From Medicago truncatula (taxonomy: Eukaryota > Streptophyta > Magnoliopsida > Fabales > Fabaceae), in NCBI RefSeq assembly GCF_003473485.1, contig NC_053045.1, positions 54,168,494 through 54,232,493 on the forward strand: 64,000 nucleotides of DNA. The letters run 5' to 3'. Positions 1 through 54,794 of this stretch are shown here, piece after piece. How positions within the stretch are numbered: position 1 is the stretch's first letter; each line of letters begins with the position of its first letter. The notes under the pieces are model-generated. The model searched no databases. It was not told the origin of the DNA and saw only the letters and a program-made list of their open reading frames with translations. Made by a program: the position numbers and the translations under genes.

Positions 1-3000
1 CTAATTTGGTACATATAGTAATTTGTACAATAAATATTGCAATGAAGCGCAGAAATAAGGGTGTATGGACTGACATATTTATAAGTACAAATAGACAACA
101 TGTAAATTTATATAAGGGATTGAAAAAGTGATGGGTTACCTGAAGAAGCAACAGCAAGTACTATCTTTTTTTCTGACCTGAGTTTTGCAATAATTGTTCT
201 GTATAGAAAAGTCTTGCCAGTCCCTCCATGGCCATACACGAAGTAGAGTCCACCAATATTAGTGTTGACAGCATTTATAACATTATTATATATATCAATC
301 TGCTGTTCGTTCAACAATGGATGACATCTTTCGTGTTCTTTTTTCAGGTCATCAACATTATAACTAAGCTCTTCCACAATAAGTCGGTTTTCCGTGGCTT
401 CAAAGGATTCACTATTTGGCAACGGCATTCCATCAAAATCAGAAAGGTAACTTCCAGCACGAACCAAAATCTTGTCAATTTCAATCAAGCAGTATGATTG
501 AATCTGTTCATCATTAAGCTCCAATCTGGAGTGTTGAAACAATATTCTCTTTTTGTAGACAATATCGTCAGACAACGTTTTCCAATTAGTTTCCCATAGT
601 TTCCCTATATCTGCCACTTCTCCATAAAGCAAAATGGTAACAAATAACTCTCTTAATTGAGTGCCTGTGGCCCACTGTGATGCTTCATTCAATGCATCAT
701 TCCACTCTCTGTTATCATTCAATAGCCCAAGAGCATTACATGTTTCTTTGAATGTCTGATAAGTCACCCCTCCCACTGTCTTTATTTCTTCATAGCTTGT
801 TGGACCATGAACAATATTCAGTAAAATTCTGAGGTAATATTTCTCCCCGCTAGTTGGATGTGCATAATAAATTCTTCCGATTGTTCTTCCAGCTTTCCGT
901 TTTTTCCACTTTTTTTTTGTCTCGTCCCAAACAAATTTTTTGGGAAACTCAGAATACGTTAATGTACGTGCTTCCGAGCTCATTGAATTCATTAGCATCC
1001 ATTCTGTAAACATAGTATGTTCAACTCCTTCCTTTGAAATTACGTCTGACAATTGCTCTGAATCTCTTAGAGTGATTGAGTGTTCTTCTGGCAAATGAAA
1101 GCTCAATCTCATAACAGCCGGATTTCTGTAGTGTATGTCAAAATTGAATATCCTCCAACATGCTTCACATGCCGATACATACCTACAATGAATAATGCAT
1201 AAAAGATGAAATGGTTATAAATTCATTGTGATCATTATTAGAGTATTCCCTATAACTACCTTGACGTACCTACAATCCAAGAATGTTTTGACCTCATCAA
1301 CCATTGTTATATGAGTTGCATTTGTGCTTCTGTTGCCCAAAACATTATCTTCTATTACCATTATTGCTCTATCTGGGCCCTTGTGAAGATATTTAAATAG
1401 GTACTTTATGGCCCTTGACTTGTTGCACCATTCAACATTTAGATGTGCTTGAAATGCCAGCAACAAACCTCGATTGTATGGAACCACATACCGATTGTCT
1501 AAATTGATATCTCCTTTTATCACATGTCTTCCATCGTCCCTCCTTCTATACGTCGGGAACCCATCTCTATCTATTGTTGTTTCATCGAAAAAACTTTTGG
1601 GAAATTTTCGACTACAAATACCATCAATCATGCAAGGTGCATTTATATTTGCATCTCCACACGGTCCATGCAGCATGAACTGTTTTACCGCATTAAAACA
1701 TTCTGGATCATCTTCCTTAGATGGCATTTCTGCAGTAATAATCTTATCTATATCCTCCGGGGTGGGATACTTATTGCTTGGGTGCAACCATAATAGTATG
1801 TGTGCATGTGGCAGACCTCTTTTTTGAAACTCTATGGTATAAATGGCTGTCAATTTGAAAAGAGAGAAAAAAAACAAATCTTTATTAGTATAACATGTAT
1901 GTATCATATAGATTGAATAAACAATTTGAATCAAATTGATCTTTAATTTTTTTTTTTTTAGAATGTGAGAACATTTATTCCATGTACTTTTACCTGATAT
2001 AATTTTACCAAAATATTGCCCCTCCACTATGTGTTTCATTAGCTGGTCAAGTTTCATTTTAAAAACTCTTGTCTTGATGTCCGGTCTATCATCGACAGAT
2101 TGACCTGGTATTTTCTGAAGCATGTATTGAATCTCTGGCCACTTTGGATTAGCAGTAAATGTCATGAAGATATCAGGATTTCCAAATGTCCTGCATATGG
2201 CCATGGCATCTTGATAGTTTTGAACCATATATCGAGGGCCACCTGTAAAAGAAGATGGCAAAACGATTCTCTTCCCAGTAGCAGCAGCTATTGTATCTCC
2301 ACGCACAACTGCATCACATACATTTCTGTACAGATCCGTACGCAACACTGTTTGATTCTGTCTAACCCAGCGCAGTCGCTCTTCTTCTATTGCCGTGAAT
2401 GCATCAACAACGTATTGTTGGAACAGTCGACCACCAATAATAAGAGTATTTGCTTCACAGGGCCTCTGTTGTATCCGGTAAGCATAATATTCTCTCATGG
2501 TAACTTTTTTTCTTTTTTTCTTTTTCTTTCTTTTTGCATGATTTTGAGAATAATAAATGTCTAGGTGAAATCCATCCTCAGCATATGGAAATAACAGAGG
2601 ATATTGCATTGCCATGAATTTTGGATGATATTCTTTTATTCTCTGCAGGCCATCTGTTTTATGCTCAATAACTATATCTCTTCGTCCATTTGATTCACCA
2701 AAATCTCCAACAATGAGACCAACAATTTCTGTTGCGGTAGGTGTTGTATATTGTCTTGAATCATTTGATCTTGTGCCAATCAACCTTATGCGAACTTCTT
2801 TGTTGTCCGGTGCAGATAATCTATCCCTTGCCATTCTAAATAATTTGGCTACAGAATTATTCATGTCGAGCATATCCTTTAGGCGCCGGACAATATCTGC
2901 ATCAAGGTCTCGTGCAGTCTTCCCACCATTCAGCGAACTCAATCGATTTTGGATCTCATTCTCCGTATCATGGACATAAAGCTGGGAGAATTTAGGTTGT

Positions 3001-5716
3001 TTTCCTTGGCCAGGTATGAGTCCACCAATTCTATGATAGTTTTGACCACTAATTTTGTACACATATGGGCCTGGACGTAAGTTCACTGTGTTGTCTATTT
3101 TAGCACCCATGGATGTGAATGCAAAAATAGAATTATATGCCCGTATTTTTTCTCTAAATTTAACGGAGTGTCTGCCACCTTTGTAAGCTAAAAGTTCCTT
3201 CAAGTAGTCTGGTGGTTGCTCTAAAAACTCTAGGGAGACATCCCCTTTCAGGCAACAAAGAGAGAATGTTGGGTTCCTTGGTCGACGTGGTTTATCAGCT
3301 CTCTCATTATACCACATTGTGCTTCCACATTTTTCGCATTCAAAATTTGGATGGCCGAGATCCATATAAGTTTGGACATGGTCTGCAAATGAGATTTTAA
3401 AGTGAAAGATTATTGGTTTTTGCAATGCTAAGTTGTTTAAAGAAATAAGCCACACTAACCATTTGTTGGATTCATCCTTCTGTCGTGTGTTCTAGATGCG
3501 ACTGACCCAGTTTGTTGGTTGTTGTTTCCTGTTGAGAGTATATATATCGAATATTATCAGTTCACGTTAGTCGTTTTTTAGAGTCTTAAGCACCGGGAGT
3601 CAGAAAAGGTAATAAATGCAGCTATGATGGTTTCATTGTGCATTTAAATATTGTATTTAAATATTATAAGCTACTATTAAATTGGTCATGCAAAGAGATA
3701 ACACTAACCACTTTTGTGTTGGATTCGATGTGTACTGTGAATACTTTTGGTATTTGTCCTTTTATGTGTTGTTATGGGTTTGGATGTCTTATTTCCTGTC
3801 GAAGAGTAAGCAGATGTAATAGAAGTAGTAAATGTTAGATTTTTATTTATTTAAATTAAAGTCTTTGATAAATTTTAAATTAATTTTCTAAGATTTAATT
3901 TAAATATAATTTAAACTATCATGAACTATATATGAAAATTAATTTAAAAATATAATTTATCATAAATATTCCACCAAATACACATTGAATGTATCGAGAA
4001 TTGAAAAATGTTAGAACAATTAAAAACTATGTAGTTTTATTTATTTTTCTTCACCTATGGTTGCTGCCAATGTGGGGCTAGGTCGCCTTGAATCAAGGAT
4101 TTGCCTCCTTTTGAATCTGGCTAGTTTAAATCTCGCACATCGTTGTATATTTTGTTCTTCTGCTTATAAGATTAAGAATAATAGAATGAAACCAATTAAA
4201 AATAAGAAGTTTAAAATGAAATATTTGAAGTTGTTTAAATGTTAAATTGATAAATGAAATGCATAAGACCCACCACTTGTGTGTCGTAGTTCAAAAGTGC
4301 TACAAACGTTTTCATTTTTCCTATTACTGTCTTGTGCTGTTGATGTGACACCTCCAATGTACCAACATTTTGAAAATGTTAAAACAGTTACAAAGTTAAT
4401 ATGTATGACTCTGAATTATTTAGTTTTATTTTTGATTTTACCTATGGATGTTGCAAAGGTGGGTCTATGTCGCCTTAAATCAAGGATTTGCCTCCTTTTT
4501 AATCTGGCTTGTTTAAACCCCGCAAGGCGTTGTATATTTTGTGGTGTTGATGTGACACCTCGAATGTACCGAGAATTGGAAAATGTTAGAACAGTTACAA
4601 AGTTAGTATGTATGACTCATGAATTATTTAGTTCTTATTTTGTTCTCACCTATGGATGCTGCAAAAGTGGGGCAACGGCGCCTTGAATCAAGGATTTGTC
4701 TCCTTTTTAATCTGGCTTGTTTAAACCCTGCAAGCCGTTGTATATTTTGTTCTTCTGTTTACAACATTAAGAACAATAAAATGGAACCAATTAAAAATAA
4801 GAAGATTGAAAGTAAAATATTTTAAGTTGTTTAAATGTTAAATTGATAAATGAAATGCATAAAACCAACCACTTGTGTGTCGGAGCTCAAACGTGGCACA
4901 AACGTTTTCAGTATTGCTATTAATGTCTTGGGTTGTTGATGTGCCTACGTTACACTGTTGGTAAGTGTCTCCTGACAAAGAGTAAGTGCATACAACATAA
5001 GTAATGAAAATAAGTTGGCCGTTAGGCCATAACGTTAGTGAGTTTTTATAAAGCATGAGCTATAATAATCCATGTGTATGTCCTAAATTTTATATTTCAC
5101 CGAAAAATGCAGCAATGTTTCCTTTATTCCGCCTCAAACTGAGCATTTGCTTCCTATTCAACCTGGCTTGTCGAAACCCAGCAAGTTTTTGTTTGTGTTG
5201 ATATTCTGTTTTTATTATTGGGAATTATAAAATGGAACAGATTAAAAGCAAAAATATAAAAATTAACAATTTAATAACATAGATAATGTAACAAATATAA
5301 AATGAGTCCACCAAATAGCTTCGACTAACCATTTTTTTGTTGGAGTTCTAGTGGGTCACTGATATTTATCGCATATCTTTTTCTTTTGTTATGCCTCTCT
5401 GATGTGTCGTTGATATTCATTGTATTTGTCTTTCTTTTGTTGTGTTTCTCCGATGTCGCTACCTCAACATGTTCTGTAGCATTTACTGGTTTATGGTATA
5501 CATTAAACAATAAAAAAATAAGAATAGAAGCATTATGTATGACATGACTATTATGAAATTAATATTTGTAAAATTGTAAGTTTAATTACTTCATATGTAG
5601 ACCATAGCATAGATACATGAGATGGTTTAGATGTTAATGTGTGTAAAAAATGTTGATCATTTGATATATGAGAATCCAAAAGAAGTCTGAAATACTATAC
5701 CTGAACTTTGATTCAT
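1..5716 (-). CDS. Helitron RepHel (Rep/helicase) protein, 3' end beyond window
   Basis: Rolling-circle replication initiator fused to a Pif1-type helicase, the transposase of Helitrons. Predicted exons (minus strand): 5716-5701, 5485-5330, 5205-5101, 4971-4870, 4754-4650, 4558-4442, 4351-4274, 4159-4055, 3795-3709, 3528-3460, 3382-1994, 1846-1270, 1182-140. The frame stays open through all of them (about 1316 codons). Visible parts: a Cys-rich segment with CEKC near residue 330; the HUH motif (GLPHAHILLWL) near 790; the two-tyrosine motif YLFKYLHKG near 925; Walker A GHGGTGKT near 1287. The start is the first ATG that splices in frame into the next exon. Exons 2-10 are short, basic and partly tandem copies. 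A splice acceptor AG lies at bases 2-1, so the rest of the helicase should lie just outside. What is seen: motifs and open frame. What is inferred: the exact small exons. Confidence 0.85.
4055..5205 (-). repeat. Tandem duplication of RepHel N-terminal exons
   Basis: A two-exon module is repeated. One exon encodes a stretch around ...TSTTQD...ENVC-TFELRHTSG (4971-4870, 4351-4274). The other encodes a basic helix-like stretch around RLAGFKQARLKRRQILDSRR (5205-5101, 4754-4650, 4558-4442, 4159-4055). The repeat unit is about 350-390 bp including its intron. Every copy starts and ends in phase 1, so gain or loss of modules does not shift the frame. The copy at 5205-5101 is the most diverged and 4754-4650 and 4159-4055 are close to each other. 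Confidence 0.8.
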
Positions 5717-16530: not shown

Positions 16531-17838
16531 TTTTTTTGAACAAACAAAAATGGAATATATTAACATCAAATCGTAATTGTTGCAGCACAAGATGTGCCAT
16601 AACAATCACGGAGAGAAACACAAACTAGTCAATGATACAAGACAGTTAGTCGATACCCATACAAATGAGCGGGTTCGACCACCAATTATGAATACCAAAA
16701 CTAAAAACTACATTACTAACTTTCATCCATCATAAGGAACATGATTTTACTTTATCTAACAAATGCGGTAAAGAGCTGTGTTTATTTCAGAAAACTCTAT
16801 CATTCCGCTCATTCCACAATATCCAAACACACATAAGCCAAATTAGATGGAAAAAAGAACGCCGTGCTCTCATACCACCTGCATAATTAATAAATTGCAA
16901 AAAATGGTCTGTTATGAACTGAGTTTCGACCCCAACAACACCAAGCCAAGCTCGCACCATCGGCCACAACACATCAAAGTACGGACAAGACAAAAATAGA
17001 TGATTCAAGTCCTCGACATGCCCACACCCATTTATGCATGACCACGCCTCCAAAGATAAGACCCCACGACTTGCCAAATTTTGTTTAGTAGGTAATCGGT
17101 CCCTCAGCAAGCGCCAAGCAAAAATAGACACTTTCAAAGGCACCTATTTGTGCCAAATCAACTCCATATTTTGATGTAACATGGGTTGTTCCTGCGAAGT
17201 CAACATATCATACACACCACGAACCGTATACCCACCGGTCTGATCTAGTAACCAAAGCCACCTGTCAGAAGAGGAATCCTGCAAAGTAACTGTAAGTAAT
17301 AGTTCCCTACACTCCTCTGCCAACTCTTCCTCCCAAACCCACAAGCGGCGACACCCCCCCCCCCCCCCCCCCCCACCAACCTCCAATCCCACCTGGAACA
17401 TGTTCCTAACCGTGACAACTTTGTTGACTGTTAAATCAAAAAGCCGTCTAAATCGCACACAAAACGGAACATTTCCACACCAACAAATCACGCCAAAAGT
17501 CAGTCTCAGCACCGTCTCCCACCTGTCTCCTAACACCCGATGCAAACCAACCATCTCCGCCCTCTCCTATCCCATCTATAATCCTCACTATCTCCCGCCA
17601 CCAAGATGAACAACTCCGGCCCCCATTCTCCAAACCACCATCCGCTGCACCATATCTAGCCACCAACACCCTACGCCACAACCCATCTCTCTCTACTAAC
17701 AACCTTCAACACCATTTTCCTAACAAAGCAATGTTAAACCCCCTCAATCTCCTAACACCCATCCCTCCGTACTCCTTCCTCAAACATAAAGAATTCCAAC
17801 TAATCCACGATATTTTTCTTTTATCCTCACTTCCTTCC
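16531..17838 (-). mobile_element. 5'-truncated L1-type LINE, inactive
   Basis: The exact 14-bp target-site duplication TCAAGCAGATTTGT flanks it (16517-16530 and 17839-17852), and the poly-A tail lies at 16531-16537 on the minus strand. The minus strand encodes the tail of a LINE reverse-transcriptase protein. At 17143-16787 is the zinc-binding zf-RVT type (SIFAWRLLRDRLPTKQNLASRG, INGCGHVEDLNHLFLSCPYFDVLW). Upstream pieces lie in several frames (17702-17448, 17554-17144), so the copy is frameshifted. A run of 21 C (17354-17374) breaks the frame. Confidence 0.9.
17354..17374. repeat. Poly-C/poly-G tract of 21 bases
   Basis: An uninterrupted 21-C run within the LINE copy, unusual in this AT-rich region. 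It could be biological slippage or an assembly artefact. Confidence 0.9.
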
Positions 17839-18259: not shown

Positions 18260-19370
18260 AGGGTCGGGGCCTAATATCAGTTGGCTTAGGGCACAAAAGG
18301 TCTCAAGACCGGCCTAGGGTGATTTTCTCTCATATCACCGAGGCACAAGACAATGACACTCCTAGCATTGTCCACCATCTCGGTCTTCTCCGCTTGTGTC
18401 ATGGTGACCGGCAATGCATCTTCACCCTTCAAAGCTTTCTGACACTTTGTTGTATCAACACCGTTTGCATCTTCACCTTCCATAACCCAAAATCATTGCT
18501 TCCAGTGAACTTCTCAATATCTCACTTTGAACCCATGATACTCACTTAACCAATTCACTCTTATTCCCCACGGTGGGCGCCAATTGTTGTGAATTCCGCC
18601 TCAAAACTCACACCAATGCAAACTATGATGTGTGGAGCAAAGGAAAGTAGTAACCAATATCAAAGTGAACACAAGCAACAACAATAATAACAATACCTAG
18701 ATCTAATCTAGTAATCAAAGTGAAAAGCTCAAAACCACAAGCAAAAGATAAAGAGAGAAGAGAAACAAACACACCAAAGATTGTTGACCCAGTTCGGTCC
18801 AACTTGACCTAATTTGGGGGAGAGATTGATGTCTCCAATCCACTATCAAAGAGTTCTTACAAAGAGATACAAATGAGTTACAAGAAATTAGCTTCAACAA
18901 GCTCACAATGAACAACCCTAATTTCTACCCATTTTTCCAATCTCACCGATGAACAAGACAATCAACCTCTCAAGAAAACCCTAATCAAAGACCCTCAACC
19001 CTAAAGTTACCTCCTTTGATTTCCCAAGTTTTTCTCTCTTGAAGCTCTTACCAAAAATTGAAGAATGAAACCTTAAATAGTGTTCAGGAATACGCAGCAT
19101 CGTGCCACGTTTTGAGCCCATCGTGCCACGTTGGAGCAGGTGATAGTACAGTACTATACCTTATTCGTCTGCATCGTGCCACGTTCCTCCTGGATCGTGC
19201 CACGATTTTTCCAGTGACAAACCCAAACCTGAACCATTCAATCGAAACGTGCCATGATTTTTCCAAACTTCAACATCAATTTTGAGACACATTTCAACAA
19301 CAACAATTTGTGATATCAAAGAGAAGAACATGCGGATGGATCTGAGGCCGTGTAGCATCCATCAATTACA
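18260..19370 (-). mobile_element. Ty1-copia 5' fragment: LTR, primer site and broken gag
   Basis: On the minus strand the order is: LTR-like region (about 19370-18590), primer-binding-like TTGGCGCCCACCGTGGGG (about 18588-18570), then the start of gag (about 18535-18280). The gag text contains EKFTGSNDFGLWK and GEDALPVTMTQAEKTEMVD, typical of copia gag. It has an in-frame stop soon after the start and a frameshift, and it ends abruptly near 18270. No second LTR is seen. The left and right ends are approximate. Confidence 0.65.
19073..19255 (-). promoter_or_regulatory. LTR promoter: TATA box and repeated CGTGGCACG motifs
   Basis: On the minus strand CTATTTAAGG (19082-19073) is a likely TATA box. 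Upstream of it, within 180 bp, lie five copies of CGTGGCACGAT or close variants (near 19250, 19203, 19180, 19130 and 19108). The core is nearly palindromic. The arrangement looks like a U3 enhancer, but function is inferred. Confidence 0.5.
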
Positions 19371-19380
19371 ATACATCACC

Positions 19381-19806
19381 CTAGTATTTAGCCAATCGTT
19401 GAGACTCACGCTCGTCAATAGCTTCTGAATCAGGTATAGCATGTCTAGCCATTAAATCACCCACTCGGTGGGTTTCATAAAAGTTACGACGAAAATAAGC
19501 ATGCAAATTAGCACACCTGGCCAAATATTTGGGATAGAGTTCTTTAACCCCTACCCATAAATCCCTTTCGACCAACAATTTTTGATTTAAAGCAGCAACA
19601 TTCTTCGCAACTTCTTCAACAATCTTATGCAACATGTCGTTCATAATATCGTTCATCATCTCTATGCTTTCAACCGTGATATCTAAATCAGGATGCACCT
19701 TCTTCGCAACTCTATATATGTGCTTTTTAAATTCTACAGTTCTTCTCTTTGTGCCACTGCTGCTGCCAACTTCTAGTATGATATTCTTTCCTTTCTTCGA
19801 TGCCAT
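19381..19806 (-). CDS. Divergent histone H2B-like protein
   Basis: Intact intronless ORF of 141 codons. Residues from about 25 to 102 align without gaps to the H2B histone fold: TVEFKKHIYRVAKKVHPD matches the conserved ETYK-IYIFKVLKQVHPD stretch, MMNDIMNDMLHKIVEEVA matches the MNSFINDIFEKLAQE helix, and YPKYLARCA falls where LPGELAKHA is expected. Most positions have changed. The N-terminal tail is short (about 25 residues) and poor in lysine repeats. The C terminus runs about 40 residues past the usual end. The start at 19806 is the only sensible ATG and has a telo-box just upstream. It could be a real variant histone or a decaying family member still open by chance. Histone-fold assignment is by eye. 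Confidence 0.65.
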   Translation of the reverse strand: MASKKGKNIILEVGSSSGTKRRTVEFKKHIYRVAKKVHPDLDITVESIEMMNDIMNDMLHKIVEEVAKNVAALNQKLLVERDLWVGVKELYPKYLARCANLHAYFRRNFYETHRVGDLMARHAIPDSEAIDERESQRLAKY

Positions 19807-19834
19807 CGCAGTTCAGTGCATTGTCTCTACAAAA

Positions 19835-19843
19835 TTAGGGTTT
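19835..19843 (-). promoter_or_regulatory. Telo-box (AAACCCTAA) before the H2B-like ORF
   Basis: AAACCCTAA lies 29 bases upstream of the ATG on the coding strand. Telo-boxes are common near starts of plant histone, ribosomal and replication genes, so this supports the ORF being a gene. Confidence 0.5.
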
Positions 19844-42988: not shown

Positions 42989-44669
42989 TAGGGGTGGGCA
43001 TGGTTCGGTTAACCTAAAAAATCGAACCGAACCGAAATTTTGAAATGGTTTGGGAAAACCGAACCGAACCGTTTTAGGTATGGAGCTAACCGAACTGAAC
43101 CAAAGTTATGTTTCGGTTAACCGTTTTCTTACCTGTGAATCGAACCGAACCGAACCAAAACCAATATTTTGAACCAAAATGCATTTTTTTTTTATCCTTT
43201 TGTGAATTTCATTGTGTTTTTTTATCCTATTTTTTTTCCAAAAGGCAAAATATTTTTTTATTAACTTTTTTTTTTTAAGAATATATATATATTTTTTATT
43301 AATATTATTATTACACAAACACAGTAAAATAATAAGTTTAATGCAAAATATATTAAGAAATAAAAATGATAGTATGAAAATTATTATCGATTATTTTTTG
43401 AAATATATGAAGTAATAATAATATAGATTAAATTAATGTAATATATAAGATTAAACACGGTAAAAAAATATGTATTAATAATTACTTTCGCGGTCAGTTT
43501 GCTTCGGATTTGAAACAATTTACTACGATCTCTTTTTAAAAATAGCTTACTCATAACCGCTTATTTTATGCAAAACACCTTATTTTAAAAAATAGTTTAT
43601 TCAAAACAGCTTATTTTATGAAAATACCTTATTTTAAAAATAAAACAGCTTATTCAAAACAACTTATTTGATAAACAACTTATTTTCTGAAAAACAACTT
43701 ATTTTAAAAGCAACTTATTCAAAACAACTTATTTTATGCAAAACACCTTATTTTAAAACAACTTATTTTATGAAAAATTAACTTATTTTTTAAAACAGCT
43801 TATTCAAAACAGCTTCTTTTATGAAAAACAGCTTATTCAAAAAAGCTTATTTTATTAAAAATAGTTTGTTACAATCTCTTTTTAAAAACAACTTAATCAA
43901 AACAACTTACTTTATGCAAAACAACTTATTCAAAACAGCTTATTTTATGCAAAACAACTTATTTTAAAAAATAGCTTATTTAAAATAGCTTATTTTATGC
44001 AAAACAACTTATTTTAAAAAATAGCTTATTTAAAATAGCTTATTTTATGCAAAACACCTTATTTTTAAAAACAGCTTATTCAAGCAGCTTAGTTTAAGAA
44101 AACAACTTATTTTAAAACATGTTTTGAATAAGTTGTTTTTTGAAAATAAGTTGTTTTGAATAAGCTGTTTTTAAAATAAGGTGTTTTTCATAAAATAAGT
44201 TATTTTTTTAAAATAAGTTGTTTTTCAAATAAGCTATTTTGCATAAAATTAGCTGTTTTTTTTTTTTAAAATAAGCTGTTTTCATAAAATAAGCTGTTTT
44301 GAATAAGTTGTTTTTGCATAAAATAAGTTGTTTTTCAAATAAGTTGTTTTTTTATAATAAGTTGTTTTCATAAAATAAGTTGTTTTTAAAATAAGGTGTT
44401 TTGCATAAAAAGGCTTTTTAAAATAAGCTATTTTAAATATGTTGTTTTTTTTTGGAAAGATCCAACAAAGAGTTCAAGTGGTTTCCATAAAAAATAAAAA
44501 AAAAATAAAAACAGTTCAAGTGGTTTGATTCGGTTCAAACGGTTCGGTTCAAGATGGTTCGGTTATGGTTCAAGAACTGTTAATAAATTAACGGTCGGTT
44601 CGTGAACCATTATAATGATTTGGTTATTTTTGATTCGGTTCGGTTCATGGTTCTTTTTGTCCACCCCTA
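42989..44669. mobile_element. hAT-type element with a giant low-complexity palindrome
   Basis: The ends are TAGGGGTGGGCA and, reversed, TAGGGGTGGACA. The flanks CTTGTACG (42981-42988) and CTTATATG (44670-44677) match at 6 of 8 bases, both differences being transitions, as an aged 8-bp duplication would. Inside the ends are many CGGTTCGGTT units. The core 43530-44460 is an array of AACAGCTTATTTTA-like units that flips orientation near 44120. Confidence 0.82.
43530..44460. repeat. Inverted array of AACAGCTTATTT units
   Basis: From 43530 to about 44118, units read AACAGCTTATTTTATG(C/A)AAAAC. From 44122 to 44460, the same units are read reversed (AAATAAGCTGTTTT...). The centre is near ACATGT at 44118-44123. 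As RNA it would form one long imperfect hairpin. Confidence 0.9.
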
Positions 44670-51679: not shown

Positions 51680-54600
51680 ATGGACTGGGGTGTTAATAGT
51701 AACAACAATCACTACAGAACTTACAAAGGTACTATACCTTAATTTACCTATTCATTCTTCATTACAACATTATATCTATCTGTAAATTCTATTGAATCAA
51801 TAATCGTGTATTTTTTGTTTGAGCAGAAGATCATAGTAATATTAATAAATCCATGATGGATTTGGAACTCATTTCAAACATGGATGGCCATGGCCTTGCT
51901 TCTTCAGAAAACCAACCAATTCCTGTTACTTCACCACTCAAACCAAGAAAGAAAACTATGACTTCTGTTTATTTGAAGTTCTTTGAGACTGCTGCTGATG
52001 GAAAGACTAGGAGATGCAAGTTTTGTGGACAGACCTATTCTATTGCAACTGCCACAGGTGCATTACCTTTCTCATCCAATTGGCTGTTTGTATGAGTGTA
52101 TGCATCTTTTTCATTGTTGTTATATTGATTCTGTGTCGGTCGCCGTAGGCCACCAACACAGACATCCAACATGACACTGACACGTAGACACTTCTAATCT
52201 AATGATTATAATCTGACTCAAGTGTCTATACTTGATGCTACAGAATTGTCTATAATATCCACTATACCATGAACCACAAATATTTCTCAGACTAGGCGTG
52301 TTCCTTTGTCGGATATGTAATGGTCCAACACATATGATTACACTGAATTATGTTATTTTCTCAAATTATTGTCTGTGTCCGGGTTTGAGTATGTGCTTCA
52401 TACTATATTAATGGTTGGTTTTCTTTTTTCAATAGTTGATTGTTTGCCATTTATTCATGTGTAATTAATCCTTGATATTAAAAATCAATCAAAGACATTT
52501 GATGCTAGATCAGTGTTACATTGTAGCATCCTTGGTTATGAAGATGTTTACCTAACGATTGTGCTTTTTGTACATGCATTCACCAAAGTTCCTTTATTTA
52601 TGTAGGCAATTTGGGGAGGCATCTTGCAAATCGCCATCCGGGATACGATAAGACAGGGGAAGCTGTCAGCAATTCAGCAGCTCGGCCCAATGTCGTAATC
52701 AAGAAATCTCAGACTCAAGGAAAAGTAAACCAGGTGGATTATGATCATTTAAATTGGTTACTCATTAGGTGGCTTGTTTTAGCTTCTCTACCTCCTTCAA
52801 CTCTAGAAGAGAAGTGGCTCGTAAATTCCTACAAGTTTCTAAACCCGACTATACAAATTTGGCCTAGTGACAAGTACAAAACTATACTTGATGAAGTCTT
52901 CCGAAGCATGAGGGAAGATGTAAGAGCCTTGTTAGAACAGGTTTCTTTTAAGTTCTCCATCACACTTGATTTCTGGACTTCCTTTGAACAGATTTTCTAT
53001 ATGAGTGTATCATGTCAGTGGATTGACGAAAACTGGTGCTTCCAGAAGTTGCTTCTTGATATCTGCCGCGTACCCTATCCATGTGGGGGTGCAGAAATCT
53101 ATCGTTGCCTCGTGAAAGTTCTTAAATTTTACAATATTGAAAGCAGAGTCCTGTCATGTACCCATGATAATAGTTCAAGTGCCATGCATGCCTGCCATAC
53201 TCTGAAAGAGGACTTGGATGGTCAGAAAATAGGACCGTTCTGTTACATTCCCTGCGCTGCTCGAACTTTGAACCTGATAATAGTTGATGGATTGAGATCT
53301 GCAAAACAAGTAATTTCAAAGATCCGAGAATTTGTAATAGAGTTAAATGCCTCACCAATAATCTCTGAGGATTTTGTTCAAATATCTACAGCTTATCAAG
53401 AAGGTACTTGGAAGTTTCCTCTTGATGTTTCAACAAGGTGGAGTGGAAACTACCAAATGCTTGATCTTGTTCGTAAGGTATCTCTTTAATTAGCTTTATA
53501 TTGAACATAAGAATCATCTGAAAAATTAACTATAGCAACATTTTTCTCAAATCACTGTTAGCATTGCAGTGCCAATATTTTACAAGACAAAGCTTGGAAT
53601 TGTAATGATTTGAATGCCTGAAGTTTTTCAATCAACACTTGTCTGAAAAGTACTGTAATTTTTTGTGTTTTCTAATGGATTCAGCCTGTGTGTTGATGTT
53701 TGTCTGATTGGAGCACTTGATTTAAACTGTGTTATGTATTACATTCATGTAGCATGCGACAGGAGTCTTGTATATTAAGATATCTTATGATGCATCACAC
53801 TTCACACTCTCACATGCACTCAAATTCAAAATTAGAAGCAATGAATACGGTAAATCATTGCATATTTTTGGTGATGCAGGCTGGTAAATCAGTGGATTCG
53901 GTTATTCATAAATATGAGGAGACACTAGGCAGTAGGATACTGCTGAGCCCTTCTGAAAAAAGTGTGGTTAACATCATGCATCAATATCTTGAGCCATTCT
54001 ACAAGACGACAAACGACCTCTGCACGAGCAATGTGCCAACAGTGGGGCTTGTCCTTTTCTTCATGGATCACATTTCAGAAACAATTGCTACCTGCAGAGA
54101 GTCATGTCCCAGCCCAGAATGGCTAAAAAGTGCTGCAGAAGAAATGGCTAAAAAGGCTAGAAATTATTTCAATCAGGTTTGCAACATATTTACATATATG
54201 ACCGCTATTCTAGATCCTCGAATAAAGGCAGAGCTGATCCCTGATAGTTTAAACTTGCAAAGTTTTCTGGACGAAGCAAGGACACATTTTATAAGAAACT
54301 ATTCTGTTAACCATTTCTCCTCCATGAGTTCTGGTTACAATGCACAAGAAATTGAAGATGGGGGAAGTGTTTCCTTTGCCGAGGAAATAGCTCGCAAAAA
54401 ACGTAGGACAAACATGAGTTCTGCCACTGATGAGCTTACACAGTACTTATCAGAGGCTCCAGCTCCTATAGCAACCGATGTTCTAGAGTGGTGGAAAGTA
54501 AACAGTGCGCGCTACCGTCGACTGTCTGTGATGGCTAGAGATTTCTTGGCTGTGCAGGCAACTTCAGTTGTGCCTGAAGAACTTTTCTGTGGCAAGGGGG

Positions 54601-54794
54601 ATGAAATTGACAAGCAACGATTCTGTATGCAGCATGATAGCACACAAGCCATTCTTTGTATCAAGTCGTGGATTCAGGTTGGCATCAAGTTCAAGTTTAA
54701 GTCGACCGAGATAGACTATGAGAGGTTGATGGAACTAGCAGCTGCTTCTGCAACAGATAATAGCCCTTCAAGTTCTGAGAAGAAGCAAAAATAA
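51680..54794 (+). CDS. BED zinc-finger hAT-derived protein, apparently domesticated
   Basis: hAT transposase-like protein. Exons 51680-51728, 51827-52057, 52606-53477, 53880-54794; 2067 nt, 688 aa plus stop. The BED finger is formed by C80, C83, H99 and H104 and is split by an intron. The RNase H-like core keeps D215 (ITLDFWTS), D281 (CTHDNSS) and a Glu at about 617-618 (VVPEELF). Flanking blocks are typical of the family: PCAARTLNLIIVDGL, STRWSGNYQMLDLVRK, a middle domain (GLVLFFMDHISETIATCRES, ILDPRIKAELIP) and the C-terminal dimerisation region (VLEWWKVNSARYRRLSVMARDFLAV). There are four intact exons and no hAT inverted ends or 8-bp duplication nearby. DAYSLEEPER/RICESLEEPER-like host genes are the best comparison. 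An alternative would be an old transposon that kept its frame by chance, which is unlikely at this length. Confidence 0.9.
52283..52402. mobile_element. Decayed GACAC-rich MITE in BED gene intron 2
   Basis: Inverted relative of the element at 32244-32404. Both contain TGAGAAAATAACATAATTCA next to a TATGTGT block, and the right end here reads, reversed, TATGAAGCACATAC. The left end is unclear. Confidence 0.65.

Follow-up and report, generated by a model that had tools for sequence, protein, structure and literature searches.

In a 64,000-nucleotide stretch of Medicago truncatula DNA (the window, C4:54168494-54232493), we followed up an open reading frame (ORF) that had been predicted, from the letters alone, to encode a strongly diverged histone H2B. 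As judged from its sequence, this ORF, hereafter the query, is a real and intact H2B-derived gene, whose function is predicted rather than proved. The reading we favor, with a probability of about 0.58, is that the query belongs to a small H2B-derived family that turns over fast by birth and death on a single chromosome, and that its product would pair with H2A, either in labile nucleosomes or off chromatin.

With an E threshold of 0.01, phmmer matched the query to 178 distinct PDB sequences. Among the best 60 of these, the first was a chain with two H2B domains (E 8e-18) and the remainder, rows 2-60, had E values from 2e-9 to 1.5e-8; all but one were named H2B, the exception being called H4 by its depositors. 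When the core (residues 21-99) was aligned without gaps to plant H2B, 22/79 residues were identical and 46/79 scored positive. These matches, at about 2e-9, and this level of identity bear out the view of a strongly diverged H2B. The gapless fit to the H2B fold, which had also been claimed, stands as one possible alignment, because aligners that are free to open gaps insert one, a single residue long, in loop L2 when the partner is a plant H2B. The profile search that had been proposed as a check gave a divided answer: phmmer found H2Bs, whereas the Pfam Histone model (PF00125) reached 22.2 bits (E 1.8e-4), under its curated cut-off of 26.4, so that the query is not formally listed in that family. 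No relatives of the query were found in prokaryote and virus contig collections, where few were to be expected. Collectively, the sequence comparisons indicate that the query is homologous to H2B beyond chance and is, by descent, an H2B.

The gene occupies 19381..19806 of the window on the minus strand (141 codons and a TAG stop), as established by ORF listing, profile and phmmer searches, and alignment. Its frame is open throughout, as the original prediction had it. The N-terminal tail is short and basic (residues 1-22, 19741..19806, minus strand; six K+R and one D+E by alignment), again as predicted, and an in-frame TGA read from the sequence two codons 5' of the ATG (19813..19815, minus strand) indicates that this shortness is real, barring a spliced, unseen exon. 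The histone-fold core (residues 23-99, 19510..19740, minus strand) contains 12 basic and 12 acidic residues and has a net charge of 0. It is followed by residues 100-113 (19468..19509, minus strand), which make up the length of a canonical H2B end and lack the ubiquitin lysine.

Several residues with known roles could be placed on the query. The HPD motif and the equivalents of the H4-facing N67, D68, E76, and R92 are kept, the E76 place being E65 on the residue map. In the ungapped alignment, the acidic-patch glutamates E105 and E113 are replaced by Y94 and H102, and the ubiquitin-accepting lysine (K120 in human numbering) by F109. The DNA-contact glycine G53 has become D, and loop L2 is altered. 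The roles of G53, E76, E105, and E113 are those given in the available portion of PMC8235166. AlphaFold gave a poor model from the single sequence (pLDDT 64.0, pTM 0.30) and a moderate one from a nine-row alignment (pLDDT 65.1, pTM 0.45), in which the extension was of low confidence. The predicted model has helices at the histone-fold places, and it superposes at 1.2 and 1.5 Å rmsd, over 69 and 70 residues, on two H2B chains from Arabidopsis DDM1-nucleosome entries. This agreement is not independent of the homology, because the input alignment contained canonical H2Bs.

We searched the query's own genome (429.9 Mb assembly, 42 contigs) and obtained 23 matches, namely the query itself, 15 canonical H2Bs, one H2B.S, and six other diverged copies. 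All six lie, like the query, on contig C4, giving at least seven copies in total. More may be hidden, because a PF00125 search of the genome, which returned 93 matches with about half of the places examined, missed the query. The nearest paralogue, L050 (55.16 Mb; 58% identical over 71 residues), is broken. It is split after codon 33 by an 839-bp insert (L050:667-1505) that begins with TGTTG, ends with CAACA, and has AGTTG on both sides, that is, a sequence with the anatomy of a solo long terminal repeat. L070 (55.65 Mb, 100 aa) and L035 (63.50 Mb, 128 aa; also row L052, with L040 a longer stretch around it) look intact. L043 (64.14 Mb; also row L051) carries one TAA, and L071 (64.16 Mb) is split across frames and has ATC ahead of its AQN, the residues that come after the start in L035. 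L069 (11.8 Mb) has GTG where its relatives have ATG; an upstream in-frame ATG could serve, and we counted this copy as damaged. Three of the seven copies, the query, L035, and L070, thus look intact, and the other four are damaged. As a separate observation, two truncated near-canonical H2B frames stand apart from the diverged family, one of 96 aa (L031, C8:32.14 Mb) and one of 51 aa (L015, C4:31.60 Mb), and are likely fragments.

Among the paralogues, L035 passed the Pfam Histone cut-off with 32.7 bits, and the other four tested fell below it. L070 reached the model at E 0.03 and L069, which scored equally well with two other models, at 0.061. Since Pfam is weak for both, their place in the family rests on their match to L035 (E 2e-13 for L070 and 5e-19 for L069). 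These weak scores, from one intact copy and one with an open frame, could be taken as a sign that the query is a non-histone protein with a histone fold, such as an NF-Y subunit, the more so as two broken paralogue pieces weakly touch an NF-Y/archaeal histone model (E 0.015 and 0.02). Yet both copies match L035, which is itself over the Histone cut-off, the query matches H2B chains in the PDB and H2Bs in its own genome, and it keeps HPD and the N67, D68, and R92 places. We therefore consider a non-histone identity barely credible.

The query shares more core residues with its diverged relatives (29/76 with L035, 29/75 with L043) than with H2B.S (25/76) or six canonical H2Bs (20-21/76). At sites changed in both partners, it has the same residue as L035 in 15/57 cases (3.9 expected) and as L043 in 18/58 cases (3.6 expected), levels reached in 0/20000 shuffles. 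Part of this sharing is recurrent substitution, because the query also has 10/33 such sites in common with the H2B.S gene of this genome. Trees and dN/dS calculations were made without L071, which is broken across frames, and the tree program warned of long branches. The query, L035, and L043 fell on one side of a branch with support 99/98; together with L050, L069, and L070 they stood apart from canonical H2B and H2B.S (100/99). The query grouped with L050 (98/97), on a long branch of its own. Grouping L035 and L043 with H2B.S was disfavored (p-AU 0.010).

That the query might be a diverged orthologue of H2B.S (H2B.8) is suggested by the 10/33 derived residues in common, above the 2.1 obtained on shuffling, and by a core identity to H2B.S higher than to canonical H2Bs. 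Against this, the genome already has an H2B.S gene (L023, the same as L053; 227 aa) with a long tail and KVVQESV, whereas no KVVxETV motif occurs in the query, whose tail of 22 residues is not expanded. Holding the query with this gene cost 12.5 log units (p-AU 0.0197, obtained with one H2B.S sequence and long branches). Orthology to H2B.S is thus extremely unlikely, in agreement with the earlier remark that the query is not of the long-tailed seed and sperm type.

We then asked to what extent constraint had accompanied the divergence. In neutral simulations, a canonical H2B was mutated to the query's level of identity over 79 codons. Only 78/3000 runs were stop-free and 44/3000 kept at least 27 of 34 hydrophobic sites; none of the 3000 did both. 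With six other simulation settings, 128/6000 runs were stop-free and 3/6000 satisfied both, and no stop-free run had as many positive-scoring residues as the query. Because neutral runs almost never keep both frame and core, much of the divergence appears to have been built under protein-level constraint. Recent constraint is weak or relaxed. Between the query and L050, the core gave a dN/dS of 0.78 (69 codons, p 0.36); inclusion of the N-terminal part gave 0.58 (102 codons, p 0.03), and a 17-codon piece of the extension gave 1.9. It was 0.39 between L035 and L043 (100 codons, Fisher p 0.002; 0.46 over 124 codons) and 0.51 between the query and L035, at a dS of 1.4 that is near saturation. Two canonical H2B pairs gave 0.03, at dS 2.3 and 1.7.

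These values sustain the main and serious rival to a working gene, namely a decaying duplicate whose function was lost recently, or which has evolved almost neutrally since the split from L050, with too little time for its frame to break. The core dN/dS to L050 is not confidently below 1, the extension piece lies above it, four of the seven copies are damaged, and the query branch is long. The original prediction regarded relaxed or neutral evolution together with a lack of expression as telling against itself; the first half of this, relaxed evolution, is seen in the dN/dS among paralogues, and all these points weigh against the reading we favor. On the other side, the simulations make it unlikely that the whole path from canonical H2B was neutral, all 141 codons are intact despite a dS to L050 of ~0.3-0.5, and comparison with a nearest copy that is itself broken inflates the ratio. 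We regard decay as a real possibility, short of an even chance.

The sequences upstream of the copies hint at the origin of the family. A telo-box (AAACCCTAA; 19835..19843, minus strand) was found by motif search 28 bases from the query ATG, essentially where it had been reported, at 29 bp. Counted as AAACCCTA, the telo-box is present in 4/7 copies, namely the query (-37), L050 (-27, with another at -101), L043 (-40), and L069 (-45). Upstream of L035, L070, and L071, none was seen within the 400-1000 nt covered. Among canonical H2B genes, assigned to clusters from match coordinates, a telo-box at -30 to -53 precedes 9/10 members of the cluster at 31-35 Mb of C4 and 0/5 genes elsewhere, and the H2B.S gene has none. 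The 64-kb window contains five telo-boxes against 1.16 expected, and 44/6388 of its 120-nt segments hold one. As the copies share descent, no probability based on independent trials can be given for the sharing. ACGTCA/TGACGT or CGCGGATC/GATCCGCG, which we take to be replication-type histone promoter motifs, occur at -123 to -184 in 14/15 canonical H2B genes and in 0/7 diverged copies; the query has one at -384. An octamer scan of the window found none at the query gene. The placement of the telo-box and the loss of hexamer and octamer motifs are consistent with a gene of the C4 cluster having been duplicated at the DNA level and released from S-phase control. This cluster is the likely parent of the diverged family.

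The C-terminal extension was examined separately. Past the point matching the "KHA" of the canonical alphaC helix, the query has 42 residues and canonical H2B 14, so that the canonical end falls at about query residue 113 and the excess amounts to 28 residues (114-141; 19384..19467, minus strand). An extension had been rightly noticed, and its size of about 40 was an overestimate. L035 and L043 are longer than canonical H2B by nine residues. The DNA of L050, by contrast, can be aligned with that of the query across the extension and beyond the stop. It shows gaps of 4 and 30 bases and an early TAA, and one of its stretches still reads AHEQDIKDSEFQRFADY against PDSEAIDERESQRLAKY in the query. 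The extension DNA is therefore, from this alignment, older than the query/L050 split, a statement that concerns DNA and not translation. The coding signal of the extension itself is weak. The first codon position shows a strong purine bias in the core (0.74) but none in the extension (0.52). The codon-usage score of the core was matched or beaten by 114 and 240 of 557 on two measures; of 3119 stop-free noncoding segments, 286 and 449 scored as high as the extension, so that codon usage there is suggestive only. A hydrophobic-moment scan placed the 18-residue segment 104-121 at 38/2000 shuffles, among 13 segments listed.

It had been proposed that the extension arose by local duplication of the C-terminal helix, on the grounds that its GDLMARHAI recalls that helix. 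A weak likeness is indeed there: in four comparisons with the alphaC helix (GELAKHAV), 114, 54, 70, and 45 of 2000 shuffles reached the score. No internal repeat was detected in the query, shuffles being as good in 1740/2000 cases for the protein and 1634/2000 for the DNA. In L035 and L043, the residues aligned with GDLMARHAI are CHGITKM and CDRITKM, respectively, and L050 has homologous DNA across the extension and beyond the stop. Since the relatives differ at this place and no repeat is found, a duplicated helix is very unlikely, and this part of the prediction was not upheld.

Taken together, the data suggest how a gene of the favored kind, a member of a fast-turnover H2B-derived family, might work. 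The query would have arisen through DNA-level duplication from the C4 canonical cluster, lost replication-coupled control, and been maintained at the protein level through most of its past. Its product may still form the histone handshake with H2A, and the kept H4-facing residues would permit entry into the octamer. The uncharged core, the G53-to-D change, the altered L2, and the lost acidic-patch glutamates and ubiquitin lysine could then yield labile nucleosomes that acidic-patch readers binding on the H2B side would not recognize and that would escape H2B ubiquitination. Use in a restricted, perhaps reproductive, tissue is a guess.

With canonical plant H2B (the C4 cluster and Arabidopsis H2B.1), the query shares a gaplessly alignable core, a single open frame, and a telo-box ~30-50 bp before the ATG. 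It differs by a core identity of 28%, a core net charge of 0 instead of +5, its short tail, the 28 additional C-terminal residues, the missing patch glutamates and ubiquitin lysine, and the absence of a hexamer or octamer promoter motif at -123 to -184. The seed and sperm H2B.S/H2B.8 of flowering plants, as described in the available parts of PMC7410336 and PMC9668745, is likewise diverged and under relaxed constraint, but its N-tail is long and carries KVVxETV and its core is nearer to canonical, neither of which holds for the query, and it sits in another group. The mammalian germline variants H2B.W, H2B.L, and H2B.N, in the excerpts of PMC8857922 available, resemble the query in core identity below 50%, changed C-termini (H2B.W being extended there in some mammals), and changes both in L2 and in residues of the H4 face or the patch. 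They differ in being of independent origin, from animals, with reported germline expression, whereas the query keeps the H4-face E76 and is known from sequence alone.

The survey of plant H2Bs in PMC7410336, in the portion available, singled out one strongly diverged flowering-plant class, H2B.S. No such diverged H2B family as ours was named among the listed titles and abstract openings of the literature searched, the bodies of the papers not being covered. At that level, the chromosome-bound family would be a second one besides H2B.S. A bolder proposal, which we consider rather doubtful, is that it represents a lineage-specific, short-lived plant H2B variant class, born from one histone cluster, freed from replication control, evolving like the mammalian germline variants, and used in a restricted reproductive tissue to build labile nucleosomes lacking the ubiquitin site and the part of the acidic patch that H2B contributes. 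H2B is among the most constrained proteins (see the canonical pairs above), and the query illustrates how a near-unchanging protein can be duplicated and remodeled. Intact members and members broken at several stages form a natural series for studying how a histone escapes constraint, which could show the contacts lost first (DNA loop, acidic patch, ubiquitin site) and those retained (H2A handshake, H4 face). Through this family one can also ask cleanly whether plants, like the mammalian germline, possess histone variants that turn over fast.

Regarding the surroundings of the query, its flanks showed no long similarity outside the gene itself to the loci compared, a set without L050; the nucleotide matches were one of 102 nt to L043 and one of 27 nt to L002. 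Four GCATCGTGCCACGTT-like 15-mers (spacings 21, 53, and 21) lie at 19097-19206 of the window, ~0.2-0.3 kb past the query stop. A LINE reverse-transcriptase remnant is found ~2 kb downstream (16787-17735, minus strand; zf-RVT E 4.5e-12 in 16790-17143). A LINE-like frame in the window gave a tblastn match (E 5.2) to query residues 69-84, which we took as chance. Further away, a Helitron-type protein is encoded at 108-3491 (minus strand) in two adjacent stop-bounded frames, with Helitron_like_N at E 4.6e-55 in 1218-3491. Frames of a hAT transposase occupy 52542-54794 (plus strand), with Dimer_Tnp_hAT at E 1.3e-22 in 53721-54791 and no Pfam match in their first part. Finally, AT-rich arrays at 43533-44428 consist of a AACAGCTTATTTTATG-like unit facing its own reverse complement and form large imperfect inverted repeats.
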